Of a DNA stretch of 64,000 nt, positions 6,449-50,383 are shown in pieces; the first letter of the stretch is position 1; each line of letters opens with the position of its first letter. The DNA comes from Botryococcus braunii (lineage: Eukaryota; Chlorophyta; Trebouxiophyceae), in NCBI GenBank assembly GCA_002005505.1, contig KV908382.1:88564-152563 (forward strand), written 5' to 3'. The notes below the pieces were generated by a model. The model made no database searches. It worked only from the letters and a program-made list of their open reading frames with translations, and was not told the DNA's origin. A program made the translations under genes and the position numbers.

Positions 6449-6841
6449 ATCTTCCCCTTTGGCACATTTGCTCAACTTGCAAATTAGGCACGTTCCTCGA
6501 AACTATGAAGCATATACAATGAACATTAATCCCTTACTCGATTAAGTACATGTCCGTAAATCTCATAATGAAATTTACGTGCAAGATCCATATATGTGTT
6601 TGGGCAATCACTGACCTGATATCTGGATACAATTAAGAATTATACCTCCGGACGTATACTTCTTCTGAGCAATCACTGCCTAGATACGCAAGTGCTCAAG
6701 CACTCAATCGTAGGACAATAACTGCCTAGATTAAACTCCACACAAGTACAACGTCAGCTGAGCTGATAAGCAGATGTAAACGCAAACAAGCTCAGATATA
6801 GCACATATAGGCGAAGAGACAAGCGTAAAGAAGACGCCCAG
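6449..6841. other. Element interior, no gene seen
   Basis: AT-rich stretch between the polypurine tract and the minisatellite. No coding similarity or repeat recognised. Confidence 0.6.
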
Positions 6842-7600
6842 AGACACGCGCCGAGAAGACGCGCCCAGAGAGGACGGGCAGAGAACAGGCGCAGGGACAA
6901 GCCCAGACACACGCGCCGAGAAGACGCGCCCAGAGAGGACGGGCAGAGAAGACGCGCAGAGACAAGCCCAGACACACGCGCCGAGTAGACGCGCCCAGAG
7001 AGGACGGGCAGAGAAGACAAGCAGAGACAAGCCCAGACACACGCGCCGAGAAGACGCGCCCAGAGAGGACGGGCAGAGAAGATGCGCAGAGAGAAGCCCA
7101 GAAACACGCGCCAAGAAGACGCGCCCAGAGAGGACGGGCAGAGAAGACGCGCAGAGAGAAGCCCAGACAGAAGCGCCAAGAAGACGCGCCCAGTGAGGAC
7201 GGGCATAGAAGACGCGCAGAGACAAGCCCAGACACACGCGCCGTGAAGACGCGCCCAGAGAGGACGGGCAGAGAAGACGCGCAGAGAGAAGCCCAGACAC
7301 ACGCGCCGAGAAGACGCGCCCAGAGAGGACGGGCATAGAAGACGCGCAGAGACAAGCCCAGACACACGCGCCGTGAAGACGCGCCCAGAGAGGACGGGCA
7401 GAGAAGACGCGCAGAGAGAAGCCCAGACACACGCGCCGAGAAGACGCGCCCAGAGAGGACGGGCATAGAAGACGCGCAGAGACAAGCCCAGACACACGCG
7501 CCGTGAAGACGCGCCCAGAGAGGACGGGCAGAGAAGATGCGATGAGATATGCTCAGAGACACGTGCCGAGAAGACGCGCCGAGAAGACGGGCAGAGAAGA
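6842..7600. repeat. 65-bp minisatellite, about 11 copies, with 130-bp higher-order structure
   Basis: The motif ACGCGCCGAGAAGACGCG recurs at 6846, 6911, 6976, 7041, then every 65 bases to 7561. Between about 7206 and 7530 two monomer variants alternate (GGGCATAG..GACAAG..CCGTG against GGGCAGAG..GAGAAG..CCGAG), giving a 130-bp higher-order unit. The monomer itself repeats GAGAAGACGCG and CAGAGA pieces. Because 65 is not a multiple of 3 and the minus strand lacks stops, long minus-strand frames of Arg/Ser/Leu/Cys-rich sequence appear in all phases; these are not evidence of a gene. Confidence 0.95.
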
Positions 7601-10315
7601 CGCTCAGAGACATAAGCATAGAAATGCGCCTCAGCTGAGTAGATAAACATAGGTATGCAGCAATAGGACTACACCCCAGCTTGAGGTGACAAATTGGTGC
7701 CGGATCACTATGATCCAATATATTAATATTCTTAAGATAATGCAACACCACTATGGTGCTCATAGGAGACTAATCAATGATAACCATAGGCCAAGTTTTA
7801 GTGCTCACGCACCTCAAGGAAATAACTTCCCCTGCTTCATTGCTTCCCCTCAAACAAGTAACACCTTAGGACTTTTCACGCTTTGTCTAGTGCTACCACT
7901 AACTCTTCCGCTGAGTAATCTATATATACCACTAACTCTTCCGCTGAGTAGTAGTACAAACAAACGACTTGAGGGATCTCCGCTTATTATCAGCAAAGCG
8001 GATACCCAAGAGTACACGATCACCGTGCACAAGACCCACGACACCGTGCACAAGCGGGATGGGATACTCTCCATTTGCTCACACACAACGAAATGACATG
8101 CTAAAAGCATTTATTCTAATGTCACTTTAATTCACAAGTCTTTGATAGACATGAGTGCGGAACATCGTTCCATGATCAACTCTTGTAATATCAAACCGTA
8201 TCTCAACAACACCAAGCTCCAGTACCATAAACAACAAGCATATCATGCACCAAACTGCAATGCACTCTAATTTAAAAGGCTCTACTATGCATGAACTCAT
8301 GTAACCAGTAGATGACTTAACAACGATAACATACACATATAGGATCCGTATAGGACACATATAGGTCCGGACTACTTACGCACTCTACAGAGCGAGGTGT
8401 ATTAACTTGCTTCCCCTTAAACCTTGGGAAAATACAACACACAAAGCAATGCCTAAATGCTTAAAGGTCAACGCTCAAGTGATCCTAAACAAAATACCAG
8501 CCAATAACCATGGATAACATAAGATTCCTCTGTAAACCGCTTGAAGATTCGAGTCATGGATCTATCGGAGTATCGGATAGTACCTCGATCGACAAAATTC
8601 ATTAGTCGACACGGAGTCTCAATCCTAAAAGCGAGTGTCTACCACCCGATCTCACTCGACTCGAACCGTAGAACCAGACATCGACGCGCAGTCTCTCATT
8701 ACCGTGTGAAAACCAGACCTGTCACGTTTTTATGAGGCTGCAGAGCCTTCCTGAGCTTCCCTGAACCAGGGAAGACCACTCAAGACACACAGCATACTCC
8801 AGACCTATTTTAAAATTATATCTAATGCGATGAAATGCCTAAAGATCACTGAACATGGGTATTTAAGGGTAGACGAGCAAAAGGCGCAAGAGACGCAACG
8901 ATGTGGGCAAACACTGAACCATCCAGAGCTCATTCCAGTTTCAACCGAAACTTAAATAACTTGGCCTAATATTGCATACTAATAAGAAGTACATTAGAGA
9001 GAATTCCCAGCCCTTCTCTATGGGCTGCATTTCCTCAACTACCCTTTATAAACGTTCATTATCCTTGGCAGATGTTTGTCTGACTCCAGGGAGTACACAG
9101 CCACTGAACATCAGTGACCCTCTCCTTCATCATATCTCTGCTCATCAGAAAGATTATTTAATGTCAAAGAAATATATATGTCAGGTAGCATTGAAGGAAT
9201 CAGCCAATCATCAATCAGGACCCTCTTCATGCAATCTGCATTTCACAAATCAAACACTAAGCTCCTACCAAAGAGCTAATATTATCAGTTTTTTTTTGTC
9301 ATCATTACCAGAAACCAAAGTACATGACTGGAGGAACCAAATATGGATTTCCTCCCTATGTTCCATAGTTTTCCCCAAGTTTTAGGAACCCTCCTCAACT
9401 CATGTAAGGTAAAACCAGGCCCTCTTGGAGATCCACTATCATGTCCAACAGCAATTATTAACAACCTTAGCCAAACACTATTACTGATTGATGATAATCC
9501 CTTGGTATTTGTACCAACATTGGCTTAAACTCACACTCATGCAAGAACCAACATATATATATTGAAGTGTAAACTTCTACAAGAGCCACAAGTGTGAAGT
9601 GAAGAATGTCAACCCAAGGTCTTCGGGTAATTTAGGTTCCAAGATCTTGGTCTAGACCTGCCTCAAGCACAAGGTCAAAAGACAAGGCCATCTTTGTGTG
9701 TACATTCTCATTGAGCATTGTCATTTACTATTGCAAGTAGCTCATGCTCTTGTATATCACACAACACATTCTCCCAGTCTGAAGACACCTTGAATAGACC
9801 TTCACTTGAGCTAGAATTAATTTACACATTAAGGGAAAGAGCATATCTGCCTCACTTGGCCTTCATCAAATGTGGATAACATATTCCCATCATTGCAAAG
9901 ACTACCTAAGTCAGAACCGCTAATCAAATTGCTCAATTATAGCAAATCTTAAACTAATTGCCCAAAGGTAAGACAACCATTGTCACTTATCGGGAAGGAT
10001 GCGGAAACGGATACGTGGTAAGCGGCTTCAAAGATGCAATTACAGGATCTCAAATATCAGCCACTACCTTTTCGATGCCATTATGACTGTAAATAATGGT
10101 TGAAATTTCATTCATGCTTCGTATGCAAGAATGAGGAACACGGCGTGGCTGCCGATGGCGAAGCGATGGAGAGAGGCACTCTGCCTCATCATCCGCCATA
10201 ATTTTGCGAGATGGGAATACTTTGACCTTTAGTAGCTTGCCAAATCGACGAGTTAAAAGGAGGCCTGAACCTCCGATGTTGATGACGACGTGCTCCAGCC
10301 GAAGACCGCCCAAGG
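7601..10315. other. Interior of the non-autonomous element, no recognisable gene
   Basis: Only short unconvincing ORFs (up to 137 aa), with no protein motif on either strand. TATA-type microsatellite patches occur near 9553. The stretch is probably leader or unrelated captured sequence of the LTR element. Confidence 0.6.
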
Positions 10316-10333: not shown

Positions 10334-12048
10334 TGTGGGTTCTGCAACCCAAAGCCGATGGTGTTACCATTCACAGATGATGGATGTCGAATGACATGAT
10401 CACAATCACCGATTTAATGAGCATGCGGAAAGTTCTCAACACAGTTACGAACGCATGCCGAACATAAGGATGCGCAGGTGAGACACATAACAAGCTTGCT
10501 TGATAAGCAAGCTTGCTTGGAGAATACTCCATTGAATGTCTGCTACAAAGGGAATGCATCGAGACGTGCAAATAAAGATATGAACTAAACGTGCACCACT
10601 TGACTACTCTTACCTGCAACCAAAGCCGATGGTGTTACCATCACAGATGATGGATGTCGAATGACATGATCACAATCACTGTACAGTACTACTTGTCAAT
10701 GCTTGGGTAACAAATGATAAAGACTAATGATACACGTTCTCACTAGTCGGGCTTACCGATTAATGAGCATGCGGAAAGTTCTCAACACAGTTACGAACGC
10801 ATGCCGAACATAAGGATGCGCAGGTGAGACACATAACAAGCTTGCTTGATAAGCAAGCTTGCTTGGAGAATACTCCATTGAATGTCTGACCTGCTGCCCC
10901 GATCACGAAGCCATAAACCAGACTTGTTGACCAATCTAATATACGCGTTAACGTCCACTTTTGGATAAAGGTTCGATTCTAGGCCAATCATCCAAGTCAA
11001 TCGATTGAGCTCAGTCTCCTTCACAATATAATGTGATCAAAGGAAGACTAATTGCACGACAGAGACCACTTTATCAGAATTGTTGATCAGATTTTTAATA
11101 CCAACTCCATGAAGCAATTGCATCTCANNNNNNNNNNNNNNNNNNNNNNNNNNNNNNNNNNNNNNNNNNNNNNNNNNNNNNNNNNNNNNNNNNNNNNNNN
11201 NNNNNNNNNNNNNNNNNNNNNNNNNNNNNNNNNNNNNNNNNNNNNNNNNNNNNNNNNNNNNNNNNNNNNNNNNNNNNNNNNNNNNNNNNNNNNNNNNNNN
11301 NNNNNNNNNNNNNNNNNNNNNNNNNNNNNNNNNNNNNNNNNNNNNNNNNNNNNNNNNNNNNNNNNNNNNNNNNNNNNNNNNNNNNNNNNNNNNNNNNNNN
11401 NNNNNNNNNNNNNNNNNNNNNNNNNNNNNNNNNNNNNNNNNNNNNNNNNNNNNNNNNNNNNNNNNNNNNNNNNNNNNNNNNNNNNNNNNNNNNNNNNNNN
11501 ACATAAAGCTAGATCTGATCAGCATGAACCTGTACAAATAACAAGTACCACGTGATCTGTAGTTCGACTGGAGTCATAGGAATAAACAGCTTGCACCTAA
11601 GCAACTGGTCCCCTGAGACCTAATCTCATCATAGGTACAGGAAACATAGTCAATGCCTATTGCATTCGACAAGGCAATACACAAGTCATTACATCCAAGT
11701 ATGACTTCAACTCAATAACAGTCAATTGCTCACTGTATGCGCGTGCAAATGCATATGCATGCTTAATACGATTGTAAAAACAGTATACCGAGAACATGAA
11801 GTATCAACCTATGAAGTATCATCGAGTTTATGATTAACAACCATATCCAATAGTGTCCCATAGCACCTTATTGACATCTTCTTTGGAATAGTTATGGTTG
11901 TGTGATTACACAACACAATTAACGTATTTTAAGATTAAGAGTTGTAGTAAGTGTGCCAACACAATATGAACCAGTTCACCCATGAAATCGCAATGATAAT
12001 CCATATCATGATCATTATCTGTAGGTGAATCATGGTTCATATCCAACA
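10334..12048 (-). repeat. 5' LTR of the non-autonomous element, containing an assembly gap
   Basis: Same sequence as 5045-6448. Between about 10620 and 11127 it carries many single-base deletions relative to the left copy (for example AACCCAAAG read as AACCAAAG), and 373 N follow. The deletions cluster next to the gap, which suggests poor consensus rather than biological decay. Confidence 0.85.
11128..11500. other. Assembly gap (373 N)
   Basis: Run of N. By alignment with the left LTR, only about 32 bases should be missing (between positions equivalent to 5868 and 5900), so the gap length is probably arbitrary. Confidence 0.95.
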
Positions 12049-13775: not shown

Positions 13776-15400
13776 AGAGGTAAATAGGCGTGAGCGCTGG
13801 CGCCCCTGCATGGTAGAACGCAGCAGTTCCTTGTGTAGGAAGCTATGGCCTCGGCTTTTACGCTCATTGTGCAGGCAGGTCTGGCCTCTCTGCTCTGCAC
13901 CTGAGTGACCCGGCTTGGATAATCCCCAAACTGTTGCATGATATAGGTTTTCAGAGTTAGCCCTGCAAGGTGGGCCCTCACCCAGCACAGTTTCTTTTCC
14001 AGGGCACACAAGCAAAGAGACAGGTAGTTCACTGGTATACATATAAACAGAAACAAGTCCGGAAATCTTCTTTGTTGCTTCTAGCCGGCCAGACATGAAA
14101 GCCAAAACAGACTGACGAAACCCAAAGTGACCTACCTGGACGCACCCTTTAGCAGCTCATTGAATCCAACACAACTCATATAAATCATAATCCTTGAAAA
14201 CATTTCTCAAAATAACAACCGTGAAGCAGCTTATCCAAAAACAACACACAGACAACGCGCGGACACTGTGCAAACTAGAACTCAGGTAGTTACCGCTGAG
14301 CTGCTCCCAATCTCCAGCTTCAGATTCTGGAAAATGGTAGAAATAAAGGATACAGTGCACAGCTGCATATTTTCAGCCTCCCGTAGGACATCGAACGGGA
14401 GGCACATAAACAAGTCCGGGACAGGTCGGGGCAGCTGCAGCTACAATTCGCCGTTCCCGTGACACTGTCACGTTACGTGACACACGGGACGTCCAAGACG
14501 GTATTGGTTCAACATTGTTCTGTGAGTTGGACCAACACATAGACCAACATTCCGAAGACAAAATTTGTGTTTGTGGAGCATTTTTGTTTCATGTCTATCA
14601 TTGAACAGCTGACGACGGAGTTGCGTGGGGCGTGCAACCAACGGCTACGTCGCCTGCATTTTGAATTTTTGTGCTCCGGAGTAACTTATGTTTCTCCAAT
14701 CTTGTTGTATTAGTTAATCCATGCTTGGATAAGTTATTAGACTGCTTTTACGAAGGCTCTCGAGGCTGTTTTGGCACGGCAAGAAACGGCTAAGCAGGGA
14801 TGAGGCACGGCTTGCAGAGGTTGGGGCTCGTTTAGGCCTCTGGGCTGGCCAAATGTAAGGTAAGGACAGATAATGTGCCTTTCTACTGTGTTTACTTCAA
14901 TGACCTATTCAAATTACATTGCTTCATTGAGTTGGGGTCCTAGCAGAACTATGCTGCAGCATCACTGTCCAGGTGCTGCAGGCCCTGAGGCATTTCAGCC
15001 TGTGCCTTACGTGTCTATTAGTATGTGGGGGCTTAACTCATAATTCAGATCAGTTTGCACATTGTGTGCTTGTTCACCATGTGTGTTAGCTTCCTTCTTA
15101 AAGAAGGATAGCAATGGGTAGGGGGATTCTTTGTATTGTGGGTTGTCAAGTCTAATACAAGAGAAAGACTTTGGGGCAGGGGGCATACTGTATCAATGCT
15201 TGCAGTAATGCTTCCAAGTCCCGTCGGCCAGCATCACTGCTTCTTAAGCTACAACTTGAGGACAACAGGTTCATTCACCTGCATTGAGTTTCACACAAGC
15301 ACGCACTTGACTCCGAGTATTTGACATGCAGGCCAAATCACTGTGTACACAGGTAGAGAAAACAGCTGCAATGGAGACACATTGTCTGTCACTACGCACT
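13776..15400. other. No gene or known element recognised
   Basis: Only short ORFs without motifs. A small inverted repeat, TCCCGTG / CACGGGA, flanks GTGACACTGTCAC at 14455-14489. GCACT at 15396-15400 is the left target-site base set of the element starting at 15401. Confidence 0.5.
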
Positions 15401-16749
15401 TGTCGTGAACTGGAGTGTGACCGTGTACATTGGTGGCCATCCGATTGATTTAAACTGACAATGTGTGTATTTGGCGTAGCCACAAAGGTGATTAGTAAAC
15501 GACCCTCAATCGGACTTGTACAGCTTTTATTATGGCTCTTATTTGACGTTTCATAAAGTCGTGGAAAAACGGCGCTTGTCTTTACCCTTTTGTACCTGGA
15601 CTGGGGTATTTGTCCCTGATTTAGGTCCTAGGGGCAAAATTGTGTATTCCGGTGATTTCATTCGAAGCAACGGTTGGAATTGAATGTTCGCGGAGACTTT
15701 GGTACTCGGTAGGTGCCATGCAGTTCGGCACGAGGAACTTTGACTTTTAGCCGTCCGCTGATCGATGTGTTGGCAGTGTTTTAGCCGCCCTTGATCATGT
15801 GAGGGCATGTGTTAATACGGCTTGGGAAGCTGTACGTATTACTAGAGGGGAGTGTATATTAGGGGCTCAGCCTCCGGCCCACAAGTAACAGTATAATTCG
15901 GAAAGTTGCGTGTAAAGCATAGCGCCCCAACTCCGTGTCTGTCCGCGGCCCCCGGCGAAATAGGGATGTTGATTGTTTGAACTGTTATTTTAAGTGTATC
16001 TGAAACACATCACTTGCAGTAATATAGTACTTTTTGTGACACCACTGACTTGCCGAGTTAGGCCATTGATCGTCCCGGTGATAACCGTTAATTTGCCTGG
16101 TAACACCCAAATTCCTACTGAATATGAAATAATATTGTCATAATTAACTTGTCAAGTTGAAAGATAAACGTGAGTAGAACAATACCCTTGTTAGTAAGAC
16201 GACAAACTTACACCATACACGGCCTCACAAACCTCACCACGAGATCAAACGCACACCACCATCCGACCCCACAGAGACTTCGAAATAATCATATTCTAGG
16301 TCCTCACAACAGCAGAGAAACATCTGAGCAATAGCCGCGACGTAGCCGTAAGCCGCCTAAACCCTGATCCGGAAGACCCGGATGAACTCCAAGAAAACAC
16401 AATAGGAAGAAAACACACATCCTGGAGAGCAGAAACCTTTTAAGAAAACCGATAGTAATCTAATAACTCTTTAACCACAAGGCCCAGCACGAGTCCAGCC
16501 CCACCAGTCAGAGCCGTGCTAGCCTAACCGCGATCGGAGCCAGCCTCCGGTTATCGTCCGAAAGACCGGTCGCAAGACCGGGAGCAGTCCAGTAAGTCCC
16601 TCCCAAGTGCTAGGTCCCGGGGCCTCACAAACCCGGGTGGCGATCCGACCAATCGATTCGAACCTACATTTATAACCCCGCAGCCCGACTGAATCTCGCT
16701 AACTGACCGACAAATTTTGTGGGGGTACCGTTGGGCACGGAACCCTGTA
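15401..16749 (+). repeat. Left terminal repeat (A1) of element I
   Basis: 1,349 bp starting TGTCGTGAAC and ending CGGAACCCTGTA, directly followed by the primer site. Matches 23714-25055. Confidence 0.9.
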
Positions 16750-16769
16750 TGGCTGCACCGTCCAGGGAG
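16750..16769 (+). other. Putative tRNA primer-binding site of element I
   Basis: TGGCTGCACCGTCCAGGGAG begins at the first base after the terminal repeat. TGG pairs with a tRNA CCA end. Element II has TGGCTTGCCGTCCAGGGAG at the equivalent place, supporting a conserved primer. The tRNA was not identified. Confidence 0.65.
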
Positions 16770-17667
16770 TTTTAGCGCGTAGACTTAGTCATCGCCTGGG
16801 CTCTCCGAATCTGACTCTTCTGCGCAGATTTGCCGTGTTTACTGTACAAAGACGTACCGTATTTCGAATCAGTTGAGCTTTGTCCGCATATAGGACTGGG
16901 TATACCCCTTTAGGAGGGGCTTGATTACATTCAGTTTGTCGCAGGAATTAACAACAAAAGCATCGGCAACGACCGTTTGGAGCGAAACCATCCTTTAGGA
17001 AAGTTCAGTTTAAAGCACCTCATCATCTGTACCGCAGAGTTAGTTGAGACAAAGTAATTGATTGTAGCACTTGATTTCCGTTTGTGTGAATCCTACCAAA
17101 AGTAAAGATCTTAATTTCATAGCCGCGATTGTTTGATTGTTTGTTTATCGAAATCTTTGCAGCCCCAAAGATCGCGGTAGTTTGATACGCATCAGGAAGA
17201 ATATATATTTGATCGATCTAAGAAATTGTAGTAGCAGTTGTTGTAGTATTTAAAGATCATTCACAGTACCTTTGTAAGGATTGCCTTTATCTTCTGGAAG
17301 TCCAAGGTTGGTAGTGAGACCTTGTTTAGGTTGGAGATACTGCAACCTTAGTAATACGATTCGTTAATTTTATAACTGCAGTGAATGTAACAAGCAGAAA
17401 GAAACCTTGTAATACCAGATTTACAATAGACTAGCATTGCACGATTGCAACTGGGTTCACGGGATGCCCCTTTAGGAGGGGTCTGATTACACTCCGTTTG
17501 TTGAACAGGCACCCCTGCAGCCAGCTAAAACAGCAGAATCAGCAATACAGTAAGTAGCAGTACCAGCCATATCTGACATTAATCTGTGTCGTGAACACAC
17601 GAGCGTAATCTCTAATAGTGTGTTAGGCCATCTAGAGCGCAAGGCCTTGTTTGACTAAACAATTAGA
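16770..17667 (+). other. Untranslated leader of element I with repeated hairpin
   Basis: CCCCTTTAGGAGGGG occurs at 16905-16919 and 17467-17481, each followed by a similar TGATTACA..C.GTTTGT segment. Both can fold as CCCCT/AGGGG stem-loops. Their position between primer site and gag fits RNA packaging or dimerisation signals, but that is inference. Confidence 0.5.
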
Positions 17668-20600
17668 ATGGCAGACGTACAAACTCCTGTTCGTTTAGAA
17701 TTTTTCTATGGAAAGCCCACAGAAGACCCTTTTCAGTGGCTTGAGTCCTTTGAGTTGTTTATTGAGATCAACCATATAGTGGGCGATCGAGTTTTACGAT
17801 TTGTCAAACACGCAATGCGTGAAGAAGCATATACCTGGTTTCGTGCAAATCAAGATGACTTTAGTGACTGGGATGAATGCAAGGAGGCTTTTCTCGAAAG
17901 ATTTGGCCTCGATGAGGACACCCTTATGTTGAAATTAGACACATGTGCACAACAATCTAATGAGACTGTTAGGAGTTATGCTGACAGATTCAGGAAAATA
18001 GTGGGTTATTTGCAGAACTCTCTGCCTCCCAGAATGGTAACACAACTATTTGTTAAAGGTCTAGTACCACATCTACGTGAGAGGGTTCAGATGACCTACC
18101 CCGGCAAAGGAGCGTTAGCCGACATTATAAAATTGGCAGCTGATTATGAACAAACATTTGGACACGCGCCTTTAGGGGGCATGTATTCAAGCCAGAACAT
18201 ACAAGTGCCGGCGCGCGAGAGGATGGATCAATGGAATCGCCGCGCCGATGACAATATGGATCAGCGTGCAGCACGCCCGCCGCCGCAGCAAAATCAGAGA
18301 GAGAACAATAGAGACAACAGAAATTGGCAGCGTCAGCGAGACTTCCCGGAGCGACGCAACCAGCAGCCAGCAGCACCGCCTAGGCAGATTGCACCAAACA
18401 ACCCACCAAGGGAGGCACCTGCGCCACCCCCAATTAATGACATTGACACCCTCACAAGGGAGATGGAGAGACTACGAATTCAAATCGCAGAACTACAGCG
18501 ACAGCCCACAGCCAACTTCACCAAGTTTGTGGAGCATGAACAGCAACCGGAGCAACCGCCCCCGGAGCACGCCACAATAATGCATGATGGATTTACGGAT
18601 CCTTTTCCCGTGTATCCTATATATGCCACTAAGAGGCCAGCAGAAAGTCCACCTGAAGCAAACCAACCGCTGCTTCGGCGCCGCCCCAACAATCTGGAGG
18701 ACACCACAGTTGACCCAAGAAACATACCAAGGCCTGCCGCCCCTCGGCCTGCACCAGCTCAGAGACAACCAGTAGAACCTACAACACCAGCAGCACCCCC
18801 TCCTGCACCTGCAAGGGAGCCAGCAGCGCGTCCACACGTGGACCTTGGAGGATTGCCTCCCCTACCTAATGCCGCACGTCCCGCCGCCTACAGGAGACCA
18901 GTGGCCAGCGCACCAGCTACGGCAGAACCCATTCAGCAGATTAAAGGGCTTCCCATGAAGCTCACCGTACAAACCTACCTGAACCACATCAGCGAGGAGG
19001 AGTTCAACAAGTCAATCATGGAGCTAAAGGAGTCCCGTGAGGAATTTCTGCGTAATAGACAGCGAGACCCGCCGCCAGCGAGAGCTACCAATGCGGAAGT
19101 TATCTACGTTTCTGGAGGGACCACCTCAACTAGCAGGACTGACAACGAGGAGTCACCTTCAACGCAAATGCCACAATCAAACCTGCAAAGGAATCCGGTG
19201 AACACCACTGTTGCCACCGTACCTATAATCATTAATGACTTAGTATTTGAGGATGGCATCATCGATACTGGTGCCACAAACACAATGATTTCACATTCAG
19301 CCGCACGACAGTTAAATTTAATTGATCAGATTGAGCCTTCACGTCTTAGATACTCGTGTGCAGATGGGAAAATGTCCACTCCTTGGGGCATTATTCGCAA
19401 GCTCCCTGTAGGAGTTGAGGGCTTAGTAATACCAATTGACGTATTTGTTAGTGGAGCGACTTCTTATGATGTACTTCTTGGAACAGATTGGCTTACTCAG
19501 GCTCACGCCGAGATAAGCTTCGCCAAGCAAGAGATGTCTTTTCGAATAGAACCACAAATTATGGGGAGAGTTCCCATCACTGTCATGCCTGCCAGTAAAA
19601 GCAGCAACCGATATTGCGTCGCGAGAGTCCCAGGAATAGATTTCGATGGTCCCGCGGGTCATCCCGCCGACCCAGGGGTACCTGGGGTACCCGGCCTACC
19701 AGACGAAATTATAAACATTGAGAACGATCTGTCAGAAGAATCCCAGGAAGAAACAGACCTTTATTCCGGGAGTGAGGGAGAAATTCCTAGTACTGAACTC
19801 TCCGAGGAGGAGGAAGAGTATTCGGAGGAGCATGAGGCTTTCTCTTCCGAAAGTGAGATTGAGATTTACAATGCGACAGTAAGCAACGAGGGTCGAGAGC
19901 TTGAGTTAGCAGCCCATCCTTACATGACTGAAGATTGGATGTTGGAAACTAATGTTTTTAGAGAAATTGAAACACAGTGGGGTCCTTTTGACCTCGACGC
20001 ATGTTGTGATCTCCAAGGTCACAACTCTCAGTTACCTTTGTATTGGTCCGCTGAGGACGATTGTTTACAGCAGAGCTGGACCCATTTGAGTATATATTGC
20101 AACCCACCTTTTTCGATAATTGACAGAGTTGTGAATCACTGCCTCGCGTGTTTCACCAGTAGTCCCTTCACCATTAGTGCAGTACTTGTGCTACCATGGT
20201 GGCCTTCTGCCCCTTGGTTTCCTACAGTAATGGAGCAATTTGAGATCATCAAACAATACCCTCCTGGTGTGCAGCTTTTCACGGCCCCGGGAGAGGACCC
20301 TGCAGGTCCGCGACGTCGTTATGGCCCTACCAGATGGCCTGTCATAATTGTTCGTGTCCCCACCTCCCTTAGGAAGGAAGATCCTGGTATGCAGAAGTTG
20401 AGAGAGATAACAAATACTGAAAAGATGAAACAGGACCCCGATCCCATGTTAAAAATCACCACCGGGATGCGAAAATTGGGTCCTAAGAGAGAAGAAGAGA
20501 TTGAGAGATTATTACAGGAGTACAGGGACGTATTTACCCCAGGTATAGTACAGGAAAGAACCACCTTAATGCACCACCGCATAGACACTGGGGATGCGGT

Positions 20601-22128
20601 CCCCATCAAAACACGCCCTTATCGCTTGTCCCGTTCGGAGGATCAGGTGATCGAGGAAGAAGTTCACAAAATGCTAGAGGCTGGAGTGATAGTGCCTTCC
20701 AGCTCTCCTTGGTCTAGTTCGCCTGTGTTAGTAGGCAAGCCGGATGGCTCTGTCCGGTTTTGTATTGACTACCGTCCATTAAATGCAGTTACCCGACGTG
20801 ACAACTACCCCATGCCTAGGATAGACGAGACCCTAGATTCCTTAGGTCAGGGGGTGGAATATTTAAGTAAGATTGATTGCAAGTCAGCCTTTTGGTTGAT
20901 ACCAGTAGCCCCAGAGGACCGTGCAAAGACCGCTTTTACCACCAAAGAAGGTTTATTCGAGTTTGTATCAATGCCGTTCGGCTTGCGTAACGCCCCGGCT
21001 ACGCTTCAGAGATTTGTTAACACTCTATTGCAAGACTTAATAGGCAAGTGTTGTGTCATTTATTTAGATGATTGTTTGGTATACAGCCGCACATTTGAGG
21101 ACCACCTCACTCATTTGAAGTTAGTGCTTGAACGCTTCCGTGCGGTGGGCTTTAGAGCCAACCCAGCCAAGTGTGAGTTATGTTGCAGTGAAGTGTTGTA
21201 CTTAGGATACATTATCACGCCCCAAGGCATAAAGCCCAACCCTTCCAAGGTTGAGGCAGTTCTCAACGCAGCACCGCCAACGAACGTGACCGAAGTCAGG
21301 TCCTTTTTGGGACTTGCAAACTACTACAGGAGATTTCTGCACAACATGGCCGCCATATCTGCCCCATTGACGCGGCTTACGAGAAAGGGGATTGTTTTCA
21401 ACTGGACCACTGACTGCCAAGCCGCTTTTGAAGCCATCAAGGCTATGCTAGTGGATGCGCCGCTTTTACGATACCCCGACTTCAGCAAGAAATTCACCCT
21501 ATACACTGATTGGCAGCCCGGAGCCGCCGCCGCCATTCTGGGCCAGGAGTTCGAGGATGGTGACCATGTGATCGCATACGCCAGCAAAACTTTACAAGGA
21601 GCAGAGCTCAGCTACTCTCCAACGGATGGGGAGCTGCTTGCCATAGTGTGGGCCGTGAAGCTATTCCGCCCCTACCTCTATGGAGTTCAATTTACTATAG
21701 TAACAGACCACAAAGCTTTGAAGTGGTTACTCACTTCACGCAATTTGTCCGGCAAACTAGCACGATACGCCATCGAACTACAAGAATATGACTTTGACAT
21801 CCAGCACCGCTCGGGGACCTTGCATGGGAATGTGGACTGCCTTTCCCGTCTACGCCTAATGCCGCCCCCCGGAGAAGACTACAGTGAAGAGCCGCCGCCG
21901 CCGCCGTTAGAAGAAGAAAATAATGAGGAGAACCACATGCACTGCTGCTACACCATGACCTTTGACAAGGAAAATATGCCGCCTGCTGGAGACACAATGG
22001 ACCTGGACCAACCTTACCCGCCACCCGCGCACGATACCACCCAGCGCGGAGAGATAGTAACTTCACCAACCCTACGACGACCCCGGAGGATGATGCACCC
22101 CCTTCCAGGGACTGCCTTCCGGAGATGA
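17668..22128 (+). CDS. Gypsy Gag-protease-(Dam-like methyltransferase)-RT-RNase H polyprotein
   Basis: 1,486 aa, uninterrupted. Gag-type capsid region about aa 12-150 (FYGKPTEDPFQWLESFELF), with no zinc knuckle seen; Pro/Gln-rich linker to about 440; retropepsin motif DTGATNTM near aa 533; acidic linker. About aa 757-902 resembles phage-type N6-adenine methyltransferases (Dam family): an initial D-W region, PFDLDACCD (about aa 773-781) and the catalytic-type tetrapeptide NPPF (about aa 812). RT follows (FCIDYRPLNAV, MPFGLRNAPAT, YLDD near aa 1132), then RNase H with TDWQPGAA, DGELLAIV and TDHKALKWLL. RT and RNase H are clearly Ty3/gypsy. Integrase is absent from the ORF. A methyltransferase domain is known in DIRS-type elements but there follows RNase H; placement between protease and RT in a gypsy ORF is unusual. 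Methylation activity is inferred, not shown. Confidence 0.9.
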   Translation: MADVQTPVRLEFFYGKPTEDPFQWLESFELFIEINHIVGDRVLRFVKHAMREEAYTWFRANQDDFSDWDECKEAFLERFGLDEDTLMLKLDTCAQQSNETVRSYADRFRKIVGYLQNSLPPRMVTQLFVKGLVPHLRERVQMTYPGKGALADIIKLAADYEQTFGHAPLGGMYSSQNIQVPARERMDQWNRRADDNMDQRAARPPPQQNQRENNRDNRNWQRQRDFPERRNQQPAAPPRQIAPNNPPREAPAPPPINDIDTLTREMERLRIQIAELQRQPTANFTKFVEHEQQPEQPPPEHATIMHDGFTDPFPVYPIYATKRPAESPPEANQPLLRRRPNNLEDTTVDPRNIPRPAAPRPAPAQRQPVEPTTPAAPPPAPAREPAARPHVDLGGLPPLPNAARPAAYRRPVASAPATAEPIQQIKGLPMKLTVQTYLNHISEEEFNKSIMELKESREEFLRNRQRDPPPARATNAEVIYVSGGTTSTSRTDNEESPSTQMPQSNLQRNPVNTTVATVPIIINDLVFEDGIIDTGATNTMISHSAARQLNLIDQIEPSRLRYSCADGKMSTPWGIIRKLPVGVEGLVIPIDVFVSGATSYDVLLGTDWLTQAHAEISFAKQEMSFRIEPQIMGRVPITVMPASKSSNRYCVARVPGIDFDGPAGHPADPGVPGVPGLPDEIINIENDLSEESQEETDLYSGSEGEIPSTELSEEEEEYSEEHEAFSSESEIEIYNATVSNEGRELELAAHPYMTEDWMLETNVFREIETQWGPFDLDACCDLQGHNSQLPLYWSAEDDCLQQSWTHLSIYCNPPFSIIDRVVNHCLACFTSSPFTISAVLVLPWWPSAPWFPTVMEQFEIIKQYPPGVQLFTAPGEDPAGPRRRYGPTRWPVIIVRVPTSLRKEDPGMQKLREITNTEKMKQDPDPMLKITTGMRKLGPKREEEIERLLQEYRDVFTPGIVQERTTLMHHRIDTGDAVPIKTRPYRLSRSEDQVIEEEVHKMLEAGVIVPSSSPWSSSPVLVGKPDGSVRFCIDYRPLNAVTRRDNYPMPRIDETLDSLGQGVEYLSKIDCKSAFWLIPVAPEDRAKTAFTTKEGLFEFVSMPFGLRNAPATLQRFVNTLLQDLIGKCCVIYLDDCLVYSRTFEDHLTHLKLVLERFRAVGFRANPAKCELCCSEVLYLGYIITPQGIKPNPSKVEAVLNAAPPTNVTEVRSFLGLANYYRRFLHNMAAISAPLTRLTRKGIVFNWTTDCQAAFEAIKAMLVDAPLLRYPDFSKKFTLYTDWQPGAAAAILGQEFEDGDHVIAYASKTLQGAELSYSPTDGELLAIVWAVKLFRPYLYGVQFTIVTDHKALKWLLTSRNLSGKLARYAIELQEYDFDIQHRSGTLHGNVDCLSRLRLMPPPGEDYSEEPPPPPLEEENNEENHMHCCYTMTFDKENMPPAGDTMDLDQPYPPPAHDTTQRGEIVTSPTLRRPRRMMHPLPGTAFRR

Positions 22129-22523
22129 GAATTGAATCAACACAGATTTATGACCTGCCGCCGCCTACGGAGACTATATCTGGCCGTTCTGCCGCTATGG
22201 CCAGCCAAGAACCTAAGACTACACCGCGTATGCGTACTGACAGCCCGCCGCTTATGGAAGATGTACCGTGCCAAGCATGCACGGGAAGAGATGATGAGGA
22301 GACCATGCTACTATGTGACCTCTGCAACCACGGATACCACATCGACTGGTTGGAGCCTGCACTGGCCCGGGTACCCAGGGGACCCTGGCTATGCCCTTTA
22401 TGTGACCAGATTGCGGATGCCGTCCCCTCTCGTGACATTGTGGACGATGAAGAAGTACTTGACTACCTAGCCGCCGACAAACGACACCGACCTGGGACAA
22501 GCCGCAAGGATGCTAGCGAATAG
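22125..22523 (+). CDS. PHD-finger protein encoded by element I
   Basis: 132 aa, overlapping the polyprotein stop by 4 bases (ATGA), an arrangement that fits re-initiation or a frameshift. Residues about 47-90 form a PHD-type zinc finger: CQAC, LLCDLC, GYH, then WLCPLC. In a canonical Cys4-His-Cys3 PHD the spacing after His is HxxC; here it reads HIDW, so the sixth zinc ligand is Trp. The rest of the fold signature (acidic residues before LLCD, Pro-x-Gly-x-W before the last CxxC) is kept. PHD fingers usually bind histone H3 tails. In a retroelement this could guide integration or tether complexes to chromatin, as chromodomains do in chromoviruses; that is inference. A separate start codon is used in this call, but fusion to the polyprotein by frameshifting is possible. 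Confidence 0.75.
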   Translation: MRIESTQIYDLPPPTETISGRSAAMASQEPKTTPRMRTDSPPLMEDVPCQACTGRDDEETMLLCDLCNHGYHIDWLEPALARVPRGPWLCPLCDQIADAVPSRDIVDDEEVLDYLAADKRHRPGTSRKDASE

Positions 22524-23688
22524 CACGCCGGGCCCAGAACTACTATTTTGCCGCCAAAGAATTCCCTATTGAATGAAGGACCCGCAACTGGCCACTTGTA
22601 CGAAAGGCCACCAGAGGATTTGGCCCAAGGACAGTACCATGGTACGAGGGCCGACTTGACATTGTTAAGGAGTACTACGACGGCAGCACGCTTGTTACCC
22701 AAAATTCTAAAGGAAAGACTTGGAGGGAATCAATACCCACCGTTGGGAAGTACCATCCCAGCCACCACTAAAAGGACTAAAGGACATAACTAGAAAAGGA
22801 ATAGTATTGCACGCATTGAAAATGTTTAAAGTAAGTTATACCACTACCGGTAGAGTGCTGAAGGTCGCATCCTTCCTATGAAGAAAGACCGTGAATGAGA
22901 AGAAGCTTGCTTCAAAGGACTTGAGCCAAAGCAGTATCTTGAGGGAATGTTGGAGTTTGGAATTGGATGGCATATGTAAGCGAAGAGCAATTCAGCCCCG
23001 CGCATCTATACTCATGGGCCAAGGGTCCCCGATGAACAACGGTGATGCCGCAAAGGCGGTGCATTATGAATCACCTTCCCAACGCGCAGCAATGGACAAC
23101 GATACCTACAAAGTACCTTGCGGCAAGGACGAAGTACAAGGAGCTGTTCAAGGAACAATGAGCAAAGACCAAGCGTGCCGCATGCAGCCGACACAATTGG
23201 AGTCGTTCTACTATCATGGATATCTTAACAAGGAACATGCAATACCTCGGCGCATCCGAGCAATAATCTGGCTGGACCAATTGAATTTGGAGGGTTTGGA
23301 AGCCCAAAGATGGAGAAGGATGTCACACCGGCTCTGGTCCCGAGAAACTTGCTTTTATCAGACATGTACACCTTCCAGGTGGAAGCAATCTGATGCATTC
23401 GAACTCTGGTGGTGTAAAATGGGCATCCCTTGATGACCATAGGCAGTACACTTGATGCAGTACATGTTGTACCTTATTCAGTAAAATATATTAAGTTCAA
23501 TACATTATGATATCACGAAGATATTAGTAAGACCATCCCTTAGAGGAGGAAAGAATTCCTACATGCGTGAGTACAAGACAGAATTGAATACCCGTACTAA
23601 TTGTACCTTATGTCATAGGCATTGTACTTTATGCTCTTTAGTCCTCTCGACAAACACTCTCGAAAGTCGTTCCAGACTTTCTCTCCTT
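22524..23688 (+). other. 3' region of element I, possible decayed coding sequence
   Basis: A 180-aa ORF at 22891-23433 has no motif I recognise. Short frames between 22540 and 22800 look protein-like (Tyr/Trp/Gly rich) but carry stops. An integrase zinc finger (HHCC) or D,D,E core is not visible. This is where an integrase would be expected, so deletion or extreme divergence are both possible. Confidence 0.45.
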
Positions 23689-23713
23689 TAAGGGGGGGAA
23701 AGGATGCCACATA
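23689..23713 (+). other. Polypurine tract and B1 repeat of element I
   Basis: AAGGGGGGGAAAGG precedes the right terminal repeat. AAAGGATGCCAC (23699-23710) plus ATA directly adjoins it. AAGGATGCCAC occurs again immediately after that terminal repeat at 25056. Confidence 0.75.
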
Positions 23714-25066
23714 TGTCGTGAACTGGAGTGTGACCGTGTACATTGGTGGCCATCCGATTGATTTAAACTGACAATGTGTGTATTTGGCGTAGCCACAAAG
23801 GTGATTAGTAAACGACCCTCAATCGGACTTGTACAGCTTTTATTATGGCTCTTATTTGACGTTTCATAAAGTCGTGGAAAAACGGCGCTTGTCTTTACCC
23901 TTTTGTACCTGGACTGGGGTATTTGTCCCTGATTTAGGTCCTAGGGCAAAATTGTGTATTCCGGTTATTTCATTCGAAGCAACGGTTGGAATTGAATGTT
24001 CGCGGAGACTTTGGTACTCGGTAGGTGCCATGCAGTTCGGCACGAGGAACTTTGACTTTTAGCCGTCCGCTGATCGATGTGTTGGCAGTGTTTTAGCCGC
24101 CCTTGATCATGTGAGGGCATGTGTTAATACGGCTTGGGAAGCTGTACGTATTACTAGAGGGGAGTGTATATTAGGGGCTCAGCCTCCGGCCCACAAGTAA
24201 CAGTATAATTCGGAAAGTTGCGTGTAAAGCATAGCGCCCCAACTCCGTGTCTGTCCGCGGCCCCCGGCGAAATAGGGATGTTGATTGTTTGAATGTTATT
24301 TGAATGTATCTGAAACACATCACTTGCAGTAATATAGTACTTTTTGTGACACCACTGACTTGCCGAGTTAGGCCATTGATCGTCCCGGTGATAACCGTTA
24401 ATTTGCCTGGTAACACCCAAATTCCTACTGAATGTGAAATAATATTGTCATAATTAACTTGTCAAGTTGAAAGATAAACGTGAGTAGAACAATACCCTTG
24501 TTAGTAAGACGACAAACTTACACCATACACGGCCTCACAAACCTCACCACGAGATCAAACGCACACCACCATCCGACCCCACAGAGACTTTGAAATAGTC
24601 ATATTCTAGGTCCTCACAACAGCAGAGAAACATCTGAGCAATAGCCGCGACGTAGCCGTAAGCCGCCTAAACCCTGATCCGGAAGACCCGGATGAACTCA
24701 AGAAAACACAATAGGAAGAAAACACACATCCTGGAGAGCAGAAACCTTTTAAGAAAACCGATAGTAATCTAATAACTCTTTAACCACAAGGCCCAGCACG
24801 AGCCAGCCCCACCAGTCAGAGCCGTGCTAGCCTAACCGCGATCGGAGCCAGCCTCCGTTATCGTCCGAAAGACCGGTCGCAAGACCGGGAGCAGTCCAGT
24901 AAGTCCCTCCCAAGTGCTAGGTCCCGGGGCCTCACAAACCCGGGTGGCGATCCACCAATCGATTCGAACCTACATTTATAACCCCGCAGCCCGACTGAAT
25001 CTCGCTAACTAACCGACAAATTTTGTTGGGGTACCGTTGGGCACGGAACCCTGTAAAGGATGCCAC
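23714..25066 (+). repeat. Right terminal repeat (A2) plus 11-nt B2 extension of element I
   Basis: A2 is 23714-25055 (TGTCGTGAAC to CCCTGTA). B2, AAGGATGCCAC at 25056-25066, duplicates B1 at 23700-23710 and is followed by ACACT, matching the left flank GCACT. B2 does not follow A1 (16750 on), so it is not simply part of the LTR. Confidence 0.8.
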
Positions 25067-25257
25067 ACACTGCCGAGACGAGGAACTTGGCAAATTTGAA
25101 CAGAATCTACCAGTCTGCAAACGCCTAATGGGTTTCTGACGGCAAACTTGCTGATGACAAAGTCGGTAGCAGCGACAAGAAATTGACCTTGATGATTCAT
25201 AGAGGTATTTCATCTCTGTAACATCCATGGAACCCTCATATTTTCCACGTGTGCAAT
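25067..25257. other. No feature recognised
   Basis: Short flank between element I and the TG microsatellite. Confidence 0.5.
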
Positions 25258-29188: not shown

Positions 29189-29788
29189 TTAGACCCCCTT
29201 CTTTGCATAAAATGATAAGCCGCCTTCCCTCTTTAGCTCAAAAGAAGAATCATCTACAAAAACTGTAGACCGAAGCTTCTTCTTTGCTATTCTTCTCAAC
29301 TGTGCCGCCGCTGCTCTCCTCTTCTCCGTCTGATGGTTGTTGAGAAGCTTGCGGATCCCCACCTTACGCTTCACGAGATCGGGGTCCGCTGCTCGAATGG
29401 CACGCTCCAAGGTCCTCCTGTGTACTCCTAGCTGGTCCACTCGCTGTTTGATGGTGGGGTGGGCGTGAAGGAAGCCCTTAAGACTTGTGTGGTATACCGA
29501 CTGACCAGCTGGGTTGAGCTTTCCAACAATTTTGTCTGCAATCTCTTTTGCCAAGGCTGCCGGCACTCTGCGAAAGCGTCCGCATCGGGGCCTATCTTTC
29601 GTGCTTGCATACTTCTCCAATTTTGTCCACCATCGCTTGCAGAACTGTCCAGGCCTTGGAGGAGCATCACCCTTCAGATGGGCAACAAGCATTTCTCCAG
29701 CTTTGGCTGCATTGAAATTTGCTTGCATGTAGAATCGAGCCCCTGCACTTCGGACATCTAGCGGCCACCCCATTTCCGCGACGGCCAA
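29189..29788 (-). pseudogene. Tc1/mariner (IS630)-type transposase fragment
   Basis: 199 aa. It contains a helix-turn-helix-rich region with a DRPRCGRFRR motif, like the DRPRSGRPR linker of Tc1/mariner transposases, a second helical segment (VHRRTLERAIRAA), then STVFVDDSSFELKREGG, which matches the strand carrying the first catalytic Asp (usual form F.DES.F). A TAA at 29189-29191 interrupts the frame; beyond it the same frame continues with LPPITSSHVMKKAAYRVHYL and GGVMHG, consistent with the DDE core, then loses similarity around 29060. The remaining catalytic residues were not found. Terminal inverted repeats were not identified. Confidence 0.65.
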
Positions 29789-30745
29789 GTCCTACATGAT
29801 GTGTAACGCCCGAAGTCAGTTACGTCTCACGTACGCCCAGATGTAACCTCAAATTTTGCATGCCAAGTCCTTACATATGTAGCTTCAATGCTATGTAAAG
29901 GGGCCAGCATACATGCACGTGGCAGCAATGAAAGGGGCATGTCCTCGTGTGCTACACCCAAGGACAAATATTTTGTGCGGTTTTTTGGAGGTCCACCGTT
30001 TTGACGAATTGATTGGCAAAATGTGGGAATTTGTAGAGGGATAGTGGCCCCTTTGGAATCAGTACTCTATGAGCTATTTTTGAGATATGAGTTTGTGCCT
30101 GCCCCGGACTTGTGTACTTGACAAAATGAGCCGTGCGTGCCGGCGTGGCAGGTTGACTGATTGATTCGAAAAGGGGGCCCACTTTTCGACAGCACCACAC
30201 ACAAGCGCAGTAAGTACGTTCCAAGAAAGACACCCTTCATGTTGTGTGAATAGGGCTACTGATTGCGTGTTCTTAGTTTAAAGCGCACTCCTTCTTCCCT
30301 CGCATCTGTACACGATTTTCACAAGTTGACACCGTTTTCACTAGAAAAGCTCGCGTTTTGCAGCATATTGCTTGGGCTTTGTTGTTGATAGATTTGAGAA
30401 GCAGTTTTGTGTCAGGGGTGCGTGGCAAGGGAAGGACCTGAGCTCCTTTGAGTGCCTCTGTGGGGGCCGGGGAAAAGCGGTTTGTCCTTTGGCACGGGAG
30501 GCTCGGACTAGGTGGTGTTTTGTTGGACTAGGGCTCCTACAGTTGAGAGCTGCAAATCAGGGGGCCATCTTTAATTAGGCATATAAGAAAGCACACGGCT
30601 GCAAACAGAAATACAAGCTCCCCGTGAGGTAGCCCAACGAACAGCCTTGACAATACATTTAACTTGGGTGAATCCCATGCCTGGCACATGCGCTATAGCA
30701 CTTTCCCTCGAAGGCAGTGTTGCACAAAATTTTTGCCCTTGGGTG
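29789..30745. other. No gene recognised
   Basis: Short motif-free ORFs only. The right part may belong to a copia LTR whose outer end I could not place. Confidence 0.4.
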
Positions 30746-37381: not shown

Positions 37382-37702
37382 GCTCGGATGCTGAGAGTGG
37401 GTGGCGCCTAAATCGGAGCTCACTAGACTGTGAATGGCGAAGAAGCGGACAAAGCAAACAGCCAGGAAGACCACCAACCTCAACGTTCCAGCGCGCTTGA
37501 GATCAGGACCTCCGTCATACAACGAACTAATCAGAGAAGGAGGACAACGTGGAGACCGCAATCCTGACGAGAGAGCCTTTATCGTCAAAGACTACATCTT
37601 TCACCTTCACGTTGGCTGTCCGTTAGCTCAACCCACCTGGTTCAGAAGTAAGATCTTGCTGCTACCTTGCGAGTACTGGAGTTATAAGACAACTGGGGAA
37701 TT

Positions 37703-43123: not shown

Positions 43124-43814
43124 TGTTGTGTTAATTAATTTTATGCCTTTCCCTCAGAGGAGTAATAATGGCAAGTCTCCGTATGAAGACAATACCAATT
43201 AGGAAAGAGAGGCAGAACCCTGAGTTCTGCCAGGCAATACATGCATTTGAACGAAGACTATCATAACGCAAGTTACAGACACGTTTGTAGAAAGGAGGCA
43301 TATGGGGCAAGCACGGATAGGGAAGGCACTTGGTTGGAACTATAGTGGCACTCCGGGTGTCTATCAATCAGTTGCTAACCAGTCCTTGACTTGTATATGT
43401 CCATGCCTACTTAACAACGCACAAGTAGGAGGACATCGTCTAACACCCTCCGTGCCGCCACCATGCAGGTGACTTAATCCTTATTGTATTCCTGGATTTA
43501 GCACTCAGATGAACATTGTTAGAACATGTTAGACATATAGAGTTGAGTTTAGCTCATCGGACAAAGTAATGAACACGACCTGGGTGAGAGCAGGTTAGGC
43601 GTGTTTGAACTGCGTCACCTTGTTAGGAGAGATGAGAGATATTGTAACACTTGGTTGGAACTATAGTGGCACTCCGGGTGTCTATCAATCAGTTGCTAAC
43701 CAGTCCTTGACTTGTATATGTCCATGCCTACTTAACAACGCACAAGTAGGAGGACATCGTCTAACACCCTCCGTGCCGCCACCATGCAGGATACGCCAAG
43801 CCCAGAATATTTCA
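43124..43814 (+). repeat. 3' LTR of the intact copia
   Basis: 691 bp; no difference from 36675-37365 seen by eye. Confidence 0.95.
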
Positions 43815-43819
43815 CTTTA

Positions 43820-44687
43820 GCCACCGAGCCTTTCTTCTAGGGGCTGAGGGCCCCGTATTTTGAGTCAAAGATTCCTCCATTGGAGCCATACAGCCATATG
43901 CAGGCAAAGTTTGCGCCTCCGTGTGGATGTAGACGTGCTTAATGTCCATGCTGTTCTCGCTTTCTTCGGGTACGGACTCCGAGGCAAGCGCGTTTGTGGA
44001 TTCATGTTCTACAATTTCCTCCTCTGAAGCTCCAAGTAGAGTCCCACTGTCCTTGTCGACCCTGACTAGCGTACTGCCTTCTTCCAGATCCATTGCTTGT
44101 AGTACTTCTCCATGGGAGCTTTCACCGGCCTCCACGTCCGGTTCGCCTTGCTTCTCTTGTAGGTTCTCTTGCTGTAGGTTGCCTTCTGGCTCTGTCTTGT
44201 CCGGAAGGTCCTCTTCTGATTCCACCTCGACCAATTCCGGAAGGTCCGTAAGGTCCTCCTTGATACGAACACAGTAACGAGCCGATGTCTTGTCGTTACC
44301 AACATTGATCCCAACCCGTCCCACGAGGTATGGGTCGATTCTGAAGGTCATTTCTTGTTTGGAGAAGCTGATGTCGGCCTTAGCTTGCGATAGCCAATCA
44401 GTGCCCAGTAGTATGTCGTAGGTCGTGGCACCGCTCACATAGACATCGAGGGGGATCTCAAGACCATCCACCCCAACCTTCAAGCGGCGCAACACTCCCC
44501 AAGGGGCAGAAGATTTCCCATCCGCACATAAAAACTTAAGCCGGGAGGGCTCAATCTGGTCCCATAGATTTAACCGCCTGGCAACAGCCTGCGACATCAT
44601 GGTGTTGGTAGCTCCTGTGTCAATGACACCATCCTCAAAAACAACGCCGTTGATCAGCACAGGCACACGTGCCACCGTAGTGGTCAC
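43820..44687 (-). pseudogene. Protease part of element II ORF, truncated by copia insertion
   Basis: Retropepsin motif DTGATNTMMS near the N-terminus with flanking residues closely matching element I (VFEDGVIDTG). An acidic Glu-rich tail follows, then the copia insertion. It lies in a different frame from gag, overlapping it by a few bases, while element I has both in one frame. The gag-protease shift is either a single indel or a programmed frameshift. A GTG, not ATG, begins this open frame. Confidence 0.8.
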
Positions 44688-46201: not shown

Positions 46202-46464
46202 GGTTTAAAGTGGAGAAAAATCTGCTGATGTGGTATGTGTTGACGGGTGTAAGACGCGTGACGTTAGCCCTTAATTGGCAATAGTCACAATAATTTGCTT
46301 AAGAAGGCAAAGATTGCCGGAGGATAGCCAAAGCCATCTTAAATTAATGGTGTAACACTAGCCCTTCAGGCGATAGTTACAATAAGTTTACTGGAAACGT
46401 GACTTCAGCCACGTCAGAAGTTCCGGTTCAGAGAATAGAATAGGGTATCTATGCTTAACCCTAA
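46202..46464 (-). other. Leader of element II
   Basis: Non-coding leader between gag start and primer site. Confidence 0.5.
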
Positions 46465-49842: not shown

Positions 49843-49862
49843 CTTCCCCTTGCCTGCATGCT

Positions 49863-50378: not shown

Positions 50379-50383
50379 CAAGT

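Follow-up and report, generated by a model that had tools for sequence, protein, structure and literature searches.

A Dam-type adenine methyltransferase domain between the protease and reverse transcriptase of a Ty3/gypsy retrotransposon family in Botryococcus braunii

The element and its polyprotein

We analysed a stretch of 64,000 nucleotides from the green alga Botryococcus braunii (contig KV908382.1, positions 88,564 to 152,563; hereafter the window), in which a long terminal repeat (LTR) retrotransposon carries a Dam-type methyltransferase domain inside its polyprotein. The open frame runs from 17659 to 22128 (1489 amino acids, aa; ATG at 17668), and hmmscan places gag, protease, Dam, reverse transcriptase (RT) and RNase H along it in that order. 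The initial annotation, made from the letters of the DNA, had described a Dam-like domain with FDLDACC and NPPF motifs between a gypsy retropepsin and a gypsy RT in one open frame, and this is the arrangement that we find. The features of the element are the following.

15397–15400 (unstranded): left target-site duplication CACT, equal to 25068–25071
15401–16749 (+): 5′ LTR, repeat A1, starting TGTCGTG, 98.96% identical to 23714–25055
16750–16768 (+): probable primer binding site, TGGCTGCACCGTCC..., proposed from its sequence, which starts TGG, and from its place immediately downstream of the LTR
17668–22128 (+): gag-protease-Dam-RT-RNase H open frame
17800–18063 (+): gag, PF03732, 2.2e-11
19255–19500 (+): retropepsin, PF13975, 3.4e-9
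19909–20358 (+): Dam-type N6-adenine methyltransferase domain, from PF05869 (6.9e-13), the AlphaFold2 model and purifying selection
19987–20007 and 20101–20112 (+): FDLDACC and NPPF motifs, respectively, within the Dam domain
20734–21216 (+): RT, PF00078 (RVT_1), 2e-34
21403–21789 (+): RNase H, PF17919/PF17917 (PF17917 2.4e-33)
22269–22403 (+): PHD finger, PF00628, 8.8e-10, in a frame different from that of the polyprotein
22517–22762 (+): integrase remnants, residues 1–55 and 354–397 only, from tblastn with the P0001 integrase
22777–23268 (+): tail module, common to integrase-deleted and RT-less copies, 62.5% identical to the L026 tail
23690–23699 (+): polypurine tract AAGGGGGGGA, from sequence
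23700–23711 (+): repeat B1, AAGGATGCCACA, followed by TA
23714–25055 (+): 3′ LTR, repeat A2
25056–25067 (+): repeat B2, AAGGATGCCACA, a copy of B1 and the end of the element, last letters CA
25068–25071 (unstranded): right target-site duplication CACT

The element spans 15401–25067, and its LTR pair differs by 12 substitutions in 1342 aligned bases (98.96% identity). The copy in the window is young and has had most of its integrase deleted; since only integrase residues 1–55 and 354–397 were found, it cannot supply an integrase. In its PHD finger, one zinc-ligand cysteine is replaced by tryptophan (HIDW, compared to HIDC in the complete copy L009). The nearest solved structure to the RT-RNase H region is that of Ty3 RT (4ol8; 1.8e-73 over residues 6–407 of 411). 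Judged by sequence, the family is a Ty3/gypsy LTR retrotransposon of B. braunii. The family has a Ty3-type RT-RNase H, direct LTRs and a short target-site duplication, and the order protease-RT-RNase H-integrase is seen in the polyproteins P0001 and P0002.

Identity and predicted fold of the Dam domain

The Dam segment matches PF05869 at 49.0 bits against a cut-off of 28.1 (6.9e-13; residues 759–861 of the frame), and Dam is the sole methyltransferase family above its Pfam cut-off in the window frame. The alignment spans profile positions 11–110 of 169, and the structure model also takes in C-terminal strands. The segment further matches PHROG 111, 'DNA methyltransferase', at 3e-15, as well as TIGR01712, 'phage N-6-adenine-methyltransferase', at 1.8e-12, but the latter match (47.1 bits) lies below its cut-off of 97.05. 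The catalytic (N/D/S)PP(Y/F/W) motif is present in the window as NPPF. An AlphaFold2 model of the segment reached a predicted local distance difference test score (pLDDT) of 88.1 and a predicted template modelling score (pTM) of 0.84, and its four best matches in a viral structure library had template modelling (TM) scores of 0.65–0.74 by query length. The model thus predicts an adenine methyltransferase fold for the segment. A profile search and a structure prediction were among the checks that the initial annotation had proposed for its Dam assignment, and both came out in its favour. No cytosine C5 methyltransferase domain was seen in the Pfam scan of the complete frames at E 0.01. Elsewhere in the host genome, MT-A70 matches occur at two loci.

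Copies in the genome and the complete form

The 176-Mb genome holds 72 Dam matches. We read 64 distinct loci among them, the window included (21 with up to 10 kb, the others with 0.7–3.3 kb); the remaining eight matches are mostly partial. By Dam similarity, all 64 loci belong to the window family. The D-x-DACC motif is found in 63 of the 64 and the exact NPPF in 53, while six carry a stop or frameshift. The segment is thus neither absent nor disrupted in all related copies, and the conservation and purifying selection for which the initial annotation had proposed a survey are both seen. A chance match or a broken frame was considered as an explanation and rejected, as all 72 matches lie above the cut-off and 69 of them are stop-free inside.

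The loci fall into three groups: F1, which includes the window; F2, with a Dam about 78% and an RT about 99% identical to those of the window; and F3, with corresponding values of 59–66% and about 85%. Two copies, L009 (2017 aa) and L010 (2001 aa), have complete single frames, made up of gag, protease, Dam, RT, RNase H, PHD, H2C2 and rve integrase, and the integrase of the complete form carries D,D(34)E. The PHD finger precedes the integrase in complete copies and is a possible chromatin reader for target choice. Four other copies (L015, L018, L019 and L022) have an integrase gap much like that of the window, together with the shared tail module. The EukProt protein P0008 (label Botrbrau1) is identical to the L019 polyprotein over 132 of 132 aligned residues (of 133).

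Among the 55 RT matches listed with at least 83% identity, 53 are preceded on the same strand by a Dam match no more than 10 kb away (within 2 kb in 49, at 6.8–8.1 kb in four), and C780 and C93:497723 are without one; these own-genome RT counts are lower bounds, with 150 of 1806 candidates scored.

Selection on the Dam domain

The Dam domain is kept in most copies under purifying selection, RT-less copies included. Between F1 and F2, the ratio of non-synonymous to synonymous divergence (omega) in Dam is 0.107 (bootstrap 0.05–0.19) at a synonymous divergence (dS) of about 1.2. For comparison, omega is 0.024 for the protease, 0.161 for the acidic linker before Dam and 0.074 for RT, and the non-synonymous divergence (dN) of the linker is 0.293 compared to 0.123 for Dam. 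Synonymous sites are saturated in the comparison of F1 with F3. A single omega fitted across 48 unique sequences of the 58 intact Dam copies, with the six of 64 loci that have stops or frameshifts excluded, is 0.221. Within groups, the Dam ratio of non-synonymous to synonymous polymorphism (pN/pS) is 0.20–0.23, and McDonald-Kreitman-type counts of fixed and polymorphic changes showed no difference.

The same constraint is seen in copies that have lost most of Pol. Six F3 copies with no RT at the expected place, all with the tail, have a Dam pN/pS of 0.137 (0.08–0.21). We excluded L007 from this set, as it has no tail and an RT match 7.8 kb downstream, and may be an interrupted complete copy; with it, the seven-copy value is 0.145. 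Taking the tail as an internal near-neutral yardstick, the three copies L024, L025 and L026 show pN/pS values of 0.03–0.05 in gag, 0.06–0.13 in protease and 0.09–0.19 in Dam, compared to 0.34–0.50 in the acidic linker and 0.62–0.77 in the tail after the deletion. One caveat on these estimates is that the copies recombine, since synonymous divergence jumps between segments, from 0.012 in the C-part of gag to 0.157 in Dam for the pair L024 and L025.

A gag-protease-Dam block

Divergence between F1 and F2 changes abruptly along the polyprotein. From gag to the end of Dam, dS is 0.85–1.8 over most of the length (where estimable), with a stretch of 88–94% identity at residues 181–270, while beyond Dam it is 0.03–0.18. 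This break, at about residue 900, coincides with the Dam end and indicates that gag, protease and Dam tend to travel together. Inheritance of these three as a block agrees with the RT-less copies, which retain just those parts.

The tail module (22777–23268 in the window, and in L024–L026) is 74.6% identical to the metagenome relative P0006 and 33% identical to part of another, P0004. As a protein it is nearly neutral, and it is perhaps a cis-acting region.

Element ends and a 12-nucleotide split repeat

The three copies with both ends read all have equal 4-bp flanks (CACT in the window and L016, CAGT in L015). The element begins with TG and ends with CA, and its final 12 nucleotides (nt; B2) are missing from the 5′ LTR but replicate the 12 nt that stand before the 3′ LTR (B1). 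The sequence of B varies from copy to copy, B1 and B2 changing together, with AAGGATGCCACA in the window, AAGCACGCTACA in L016, AAGAATGCCACA in L019 and GGACGTGACA in F3. This split repeat is present in F1, F2 and F3 copies. B2 follows A2 in all eight copies whose right end was found (in L021, the start of the 3′ LTR was found and the right end was not), and no B lies to the left of the 5′ LTR in five of the six left ends read. The sixth, L026, shares an LTR with an upstream element. In this tandem (L026 181–8460 in element orientation), one LTR ends the upstream element and starts the next, with a polypurine tract and B1 before it and a primer-binding-like site after it.

The repeat order is A-pol-B-A-B, with A of about 1.35 kb and B of about 12 nt, as in the split repeats of Ngaro elements (available passages of PMC3783388), although the likeness may be superficial, B being very short. 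Joining of the two ends would give a B-TA-A junction, and we infer that integration may proceed from an end-joined (circle-junction) form.

Relatives and ancestry of the domain

Among the relatives, P0005 (1996 aa) has the same whole domain order as the complete form, PHD included, and P0007 (2567 aa) reads protease-Dam-RT-RNase H-integrase with no PHD match. P0004 and P0006 are gag-protease-Dam proteins with no RT match, and P0009 has its Dam directly before an aspartyl protease, an order unlike that of the window. In P0011, P0012 and P0015, Dam comes, by our reading, after the end of an RNase H; Pfam named the Dam part only, below cut-off in P0015. In a 254-aa metagenome protein, P0018, a NUDIX domain comes after a Dam-like stretch that scores below the Pfam cut-off. 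The RTs of P0007 and the window share 35% identity, while other gypsy RTs of the B. braunii genome, which lie at sites without a listed Dam, reach 44–49% with that of the window; by RT identity, the two Dam-carrying gypsies are thus not nearest relatives.

In a Dam tree of 28 of 30 rows, from which the phage KshKPC (translation unalignable, end branch 5.3) and P0026 (long branch) were left out, 19 eukaryotic rows split from nine phage or prokaryote rows at 100/100. P0016, from Apatococcus lobatus, groups with P0007 (support 99/98), and the eukaryotic rows that hold the gypsy Dams also include P0011, P0012 and P0015. A GPTRWP motif near the C-terminus marks 17 of the 19 eukaryotic rows (one other has GPTSWP and one is truncated) and none of the nine phage or prokaryote rows, while NPPF/Y is present in 13 of the 19. 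Approximately unbiased (AU) tests did not reject a single gypsy clade (p 0.31) and gave p 0.064 for the gypsy and RNase H-Dam sequences as one clade, so that, with the further AU test given below, the branching order inside the eukaryotic rows is not fixed. Because the Dam groups with other eukaryotic retroelement Dams, apart from the sampled phage Dams, its capture from another retroelement appears likelier than a fresh capture from phage. A search of the host genome with P0012 for a DIRS donor gave 75 matches, and the placeable ones, with C93:500423 left out, belong to the same gypsy family.

Comparison with known systems

The phage Dams of PF05869, such as that of Edwardsiella phage eiAU, share the fold and motifs of the window domain (28.5% identity over 84% of the query) but differ in the GPTRWP motif. 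In DIRS1-like retrotransposons, a Dam/PF05869 (MT) domain is part of Pol (available passages of PMC3266345 and PMC3783388). The initial annotation had given Dam after RNase H as the arrangement in DIRS elements, and this is the order described for them. DIRS elements have the order RT-RNase H-MT and a tyrosine recombinase, with neither protease nor DDE integrase, whereas in the Botryococcus element the order is protease-Dam-RT-RNase H-PHD-integrase and Dam precedes RT. At E 0.01, Pfam assigns no tyrosine recombinase (PF00589) to P0001, P0002, P0005 or P0007; these have the rve integrase instead.

A close parallel in the green lineage is KnitGypsy-Dnmt3 of Klebsormidium nitens, for which the available text describes a Dnmt3 in the gypsy Pol frame, Ka/Ks < 0.2 and repeats called DIRS-like (PMC5890265). 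Both are Ty3/gypsy elements of a green-lineage alga with a DNA methyltransferase-type domain in the Pol frame, but the domain is a cytosine Dnmt3 in one and an adenine Dam-type domain in the other, and a PHD finger, present in the complete Botryococcus form, goes unmentioned in that part of the KnitGypsy-Dnmt3 description. Passages on other gypsy elements likewise report captured nucleic-acid or chromatin domains, AlkB in orchids (PMC9289625) and Tudor/NADAR in Ectocarpus (PMC12477816), although these are other domains in other places. Our literature search, which was poor in subscription journals, found no published description of a Dam between the protease and RT of a gypsy element; one published passage is ambiguous on this point, although we take it not to concern a gypsy element with Dam. 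As far as these sources go, Dam in DIRS and a cytosine methyltransferase in gypsy were already known, and what appears to be new is Dam in the protease-RT slot.

Other features of the window

At 43812–46204 (−) lies a second, related gag-protease element, with a gag 58% identical and open reading frames at 44684–46204 and 43812–44762; its protease was recognised by eye, and there is no Dam match near it. An open 1805-aa frame at 37688–43105 (+) reads by eye as a Ty1/copia gag-pol, with more copia-like frames at 47350–54321. A 200-aa frame at 29189–29791 (−) resembles, by eye, the start of a helix-turn-helix transposase. A minisatellite-like repeat at 6731–7769 keeps several frames open for 169–325 aa, and a run of N lies at about 11112–11480, where frames read X.

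Proposed function and alternatives

The reading that we favour, and to which we give about an even chance, is that this gypsy family uses the Dam in its protease-RT slot to methylate adenine in its own nucleic acid. Dam would be synthesised within the Gag-Pol precursor, and the protease of the element would either free it or leave it in the particle. It would then methylate adenine in the packaged nucleic acid, most likely the cDNA or an RNA-DNA hybrid, and the new copy would enter the nucleus already marked. Marking of the element's own cDNA is also the explanation offered for retrotransposon-captured methyltransferases in the available text of PMC5890265. More speculatively, in a lineage of hosts whose transcribed chromatin is marked by N6-methyladenine, such a mark could protect the cDNA or allow the new copy to remain expressible; in Chlamydomonas, passages of PMC12695648 place this base near the start of active genes, with transposable elements not enriched. 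Since RT-less copies keep gag-protease-Dam, a copy seems to need the Dam module that it encodes, with RT and integrase borrowed, and selection on Dam even in such stripped-down copies suggests that the genetic material being marked is the element's own. Action on target DNA or control of silencing, both raised in the initial annotation, is a guess. Counts of GATC, observed against expected, are 7 and 5.2 in the 5′ LTR, 5 and 3.4 in the 5′ untranslated region, 14 and 17.2 in gag-pol, and 0 and 6.0 in the 3′ region, with no clear pattern along the one copy counted.

Two results weigh against this reading. An AU test did not reject a topology in which gypsy rows of the Botryococcus type were held together with those of phages (p 0.125), which bears on the retroelement ancestry of the domain, and the best solved structural match of the Dam model is PCIF1, an RNA cap-adenosine methyltransferase that also has an NPPF motif, which bears on DNA as the substrate. 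It is possible, though we think it unlikely, that the substrate is RNA, either the genomic RNA of the element or its capped 5′ end, where N6-methyladenosine (m6A) or N6,2′-O-dimethyladenosine (m6Am) would aid packaging, stability or translation. Against an RNA substrate stands the standing of Dam as the only methyltransferase family above its Pfam cut-off, while the match to PCIF1 (PF12237) in the window frame is not significant (E 0.12, 12.3 of the 31.1 bits needed) and no PCIF1 match appears in the Pfam scan of complete frames at E 0.01. The full PCIF1 enzyme is far larger, with chains of 467–508 residues, and in the viral library phage Dam models (4.6e-10) rank above the first one named PCIF1 (3.3e-5). 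PCIF1 may lead the PDB list for want of nearer entries, as a profile search of PDB sequences with the Dam alignment found no solved Dam of this kind at E 1.

Less probable still is a catalytically dead Dam that binds nucleic acid or S-adenosylmethionine as a structural part of Gag-Pol. The inheritance of Dam as a block with gag and protease would suit such a role, as would the HPPF in place of NPPF in P0004, an RT-less element from a cluster of 27 sequences, and the departure of five further tree relatives from NPPF/Y. The high retention of D-x-DACC and NPPF across the 64 loci argues the other way, as does the invariance of NPPF and D-x-DAC in six aligned gypsy and Dam-protease sequences; moreover, a legend of PMC8868631 gives D, N, S and H as first residues able to take the proton, which includes HPPF. 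A methyltransferase serving as weapon or shield against other DNA, for example that of large DNA viruses of algae, has been proposed for retrotransposon methylases (passages of PMC6338049), but draws no support from the window sequence, and we consider it very improbable here; the Pfam matches of complete frames include no restriction-type nuclease, and action on the nucleic acid of the element itself accounts better for the selected retention in RT-less copies. That Dam is a functionless hitch-hiker, kept only through the youth of the copies, would fit the near-identical LTR pair of the window copy, but this idea is largely refuted and hardly credible, as subfamilies at a Dam dS of about 1.2 still show the low omega given above, and the acidic linker next to Dam is the more changed in amino acids.

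A wider picture can be drawn only tentatively, and we would not expect all of its parts to hold. A gag-linked Dam module would let a gypsy lineage of green algae place N6-methyladenine on its own nucleic acid in the particle, non-autonomous partners would drop RT, RNase H and integrase yet keep the module under selection, and integration from a circle-junction form would join a DDE integrase to a DIRS/Ngaro-like geometry.

The presence of Dam in the same slot of a distant gypsy polyprotein hints that the protease-RT interval is a favoured or ancient place for this domain. The use of a captured methyltransferase is usually hard to separate from that of the remainder of Pol. In the present family, Dam stays under purifying selection where RT, RNase H and integrase have been lost, so that what a retrotransposon gains from such a domain becomes directly testable, and in the green lineage.

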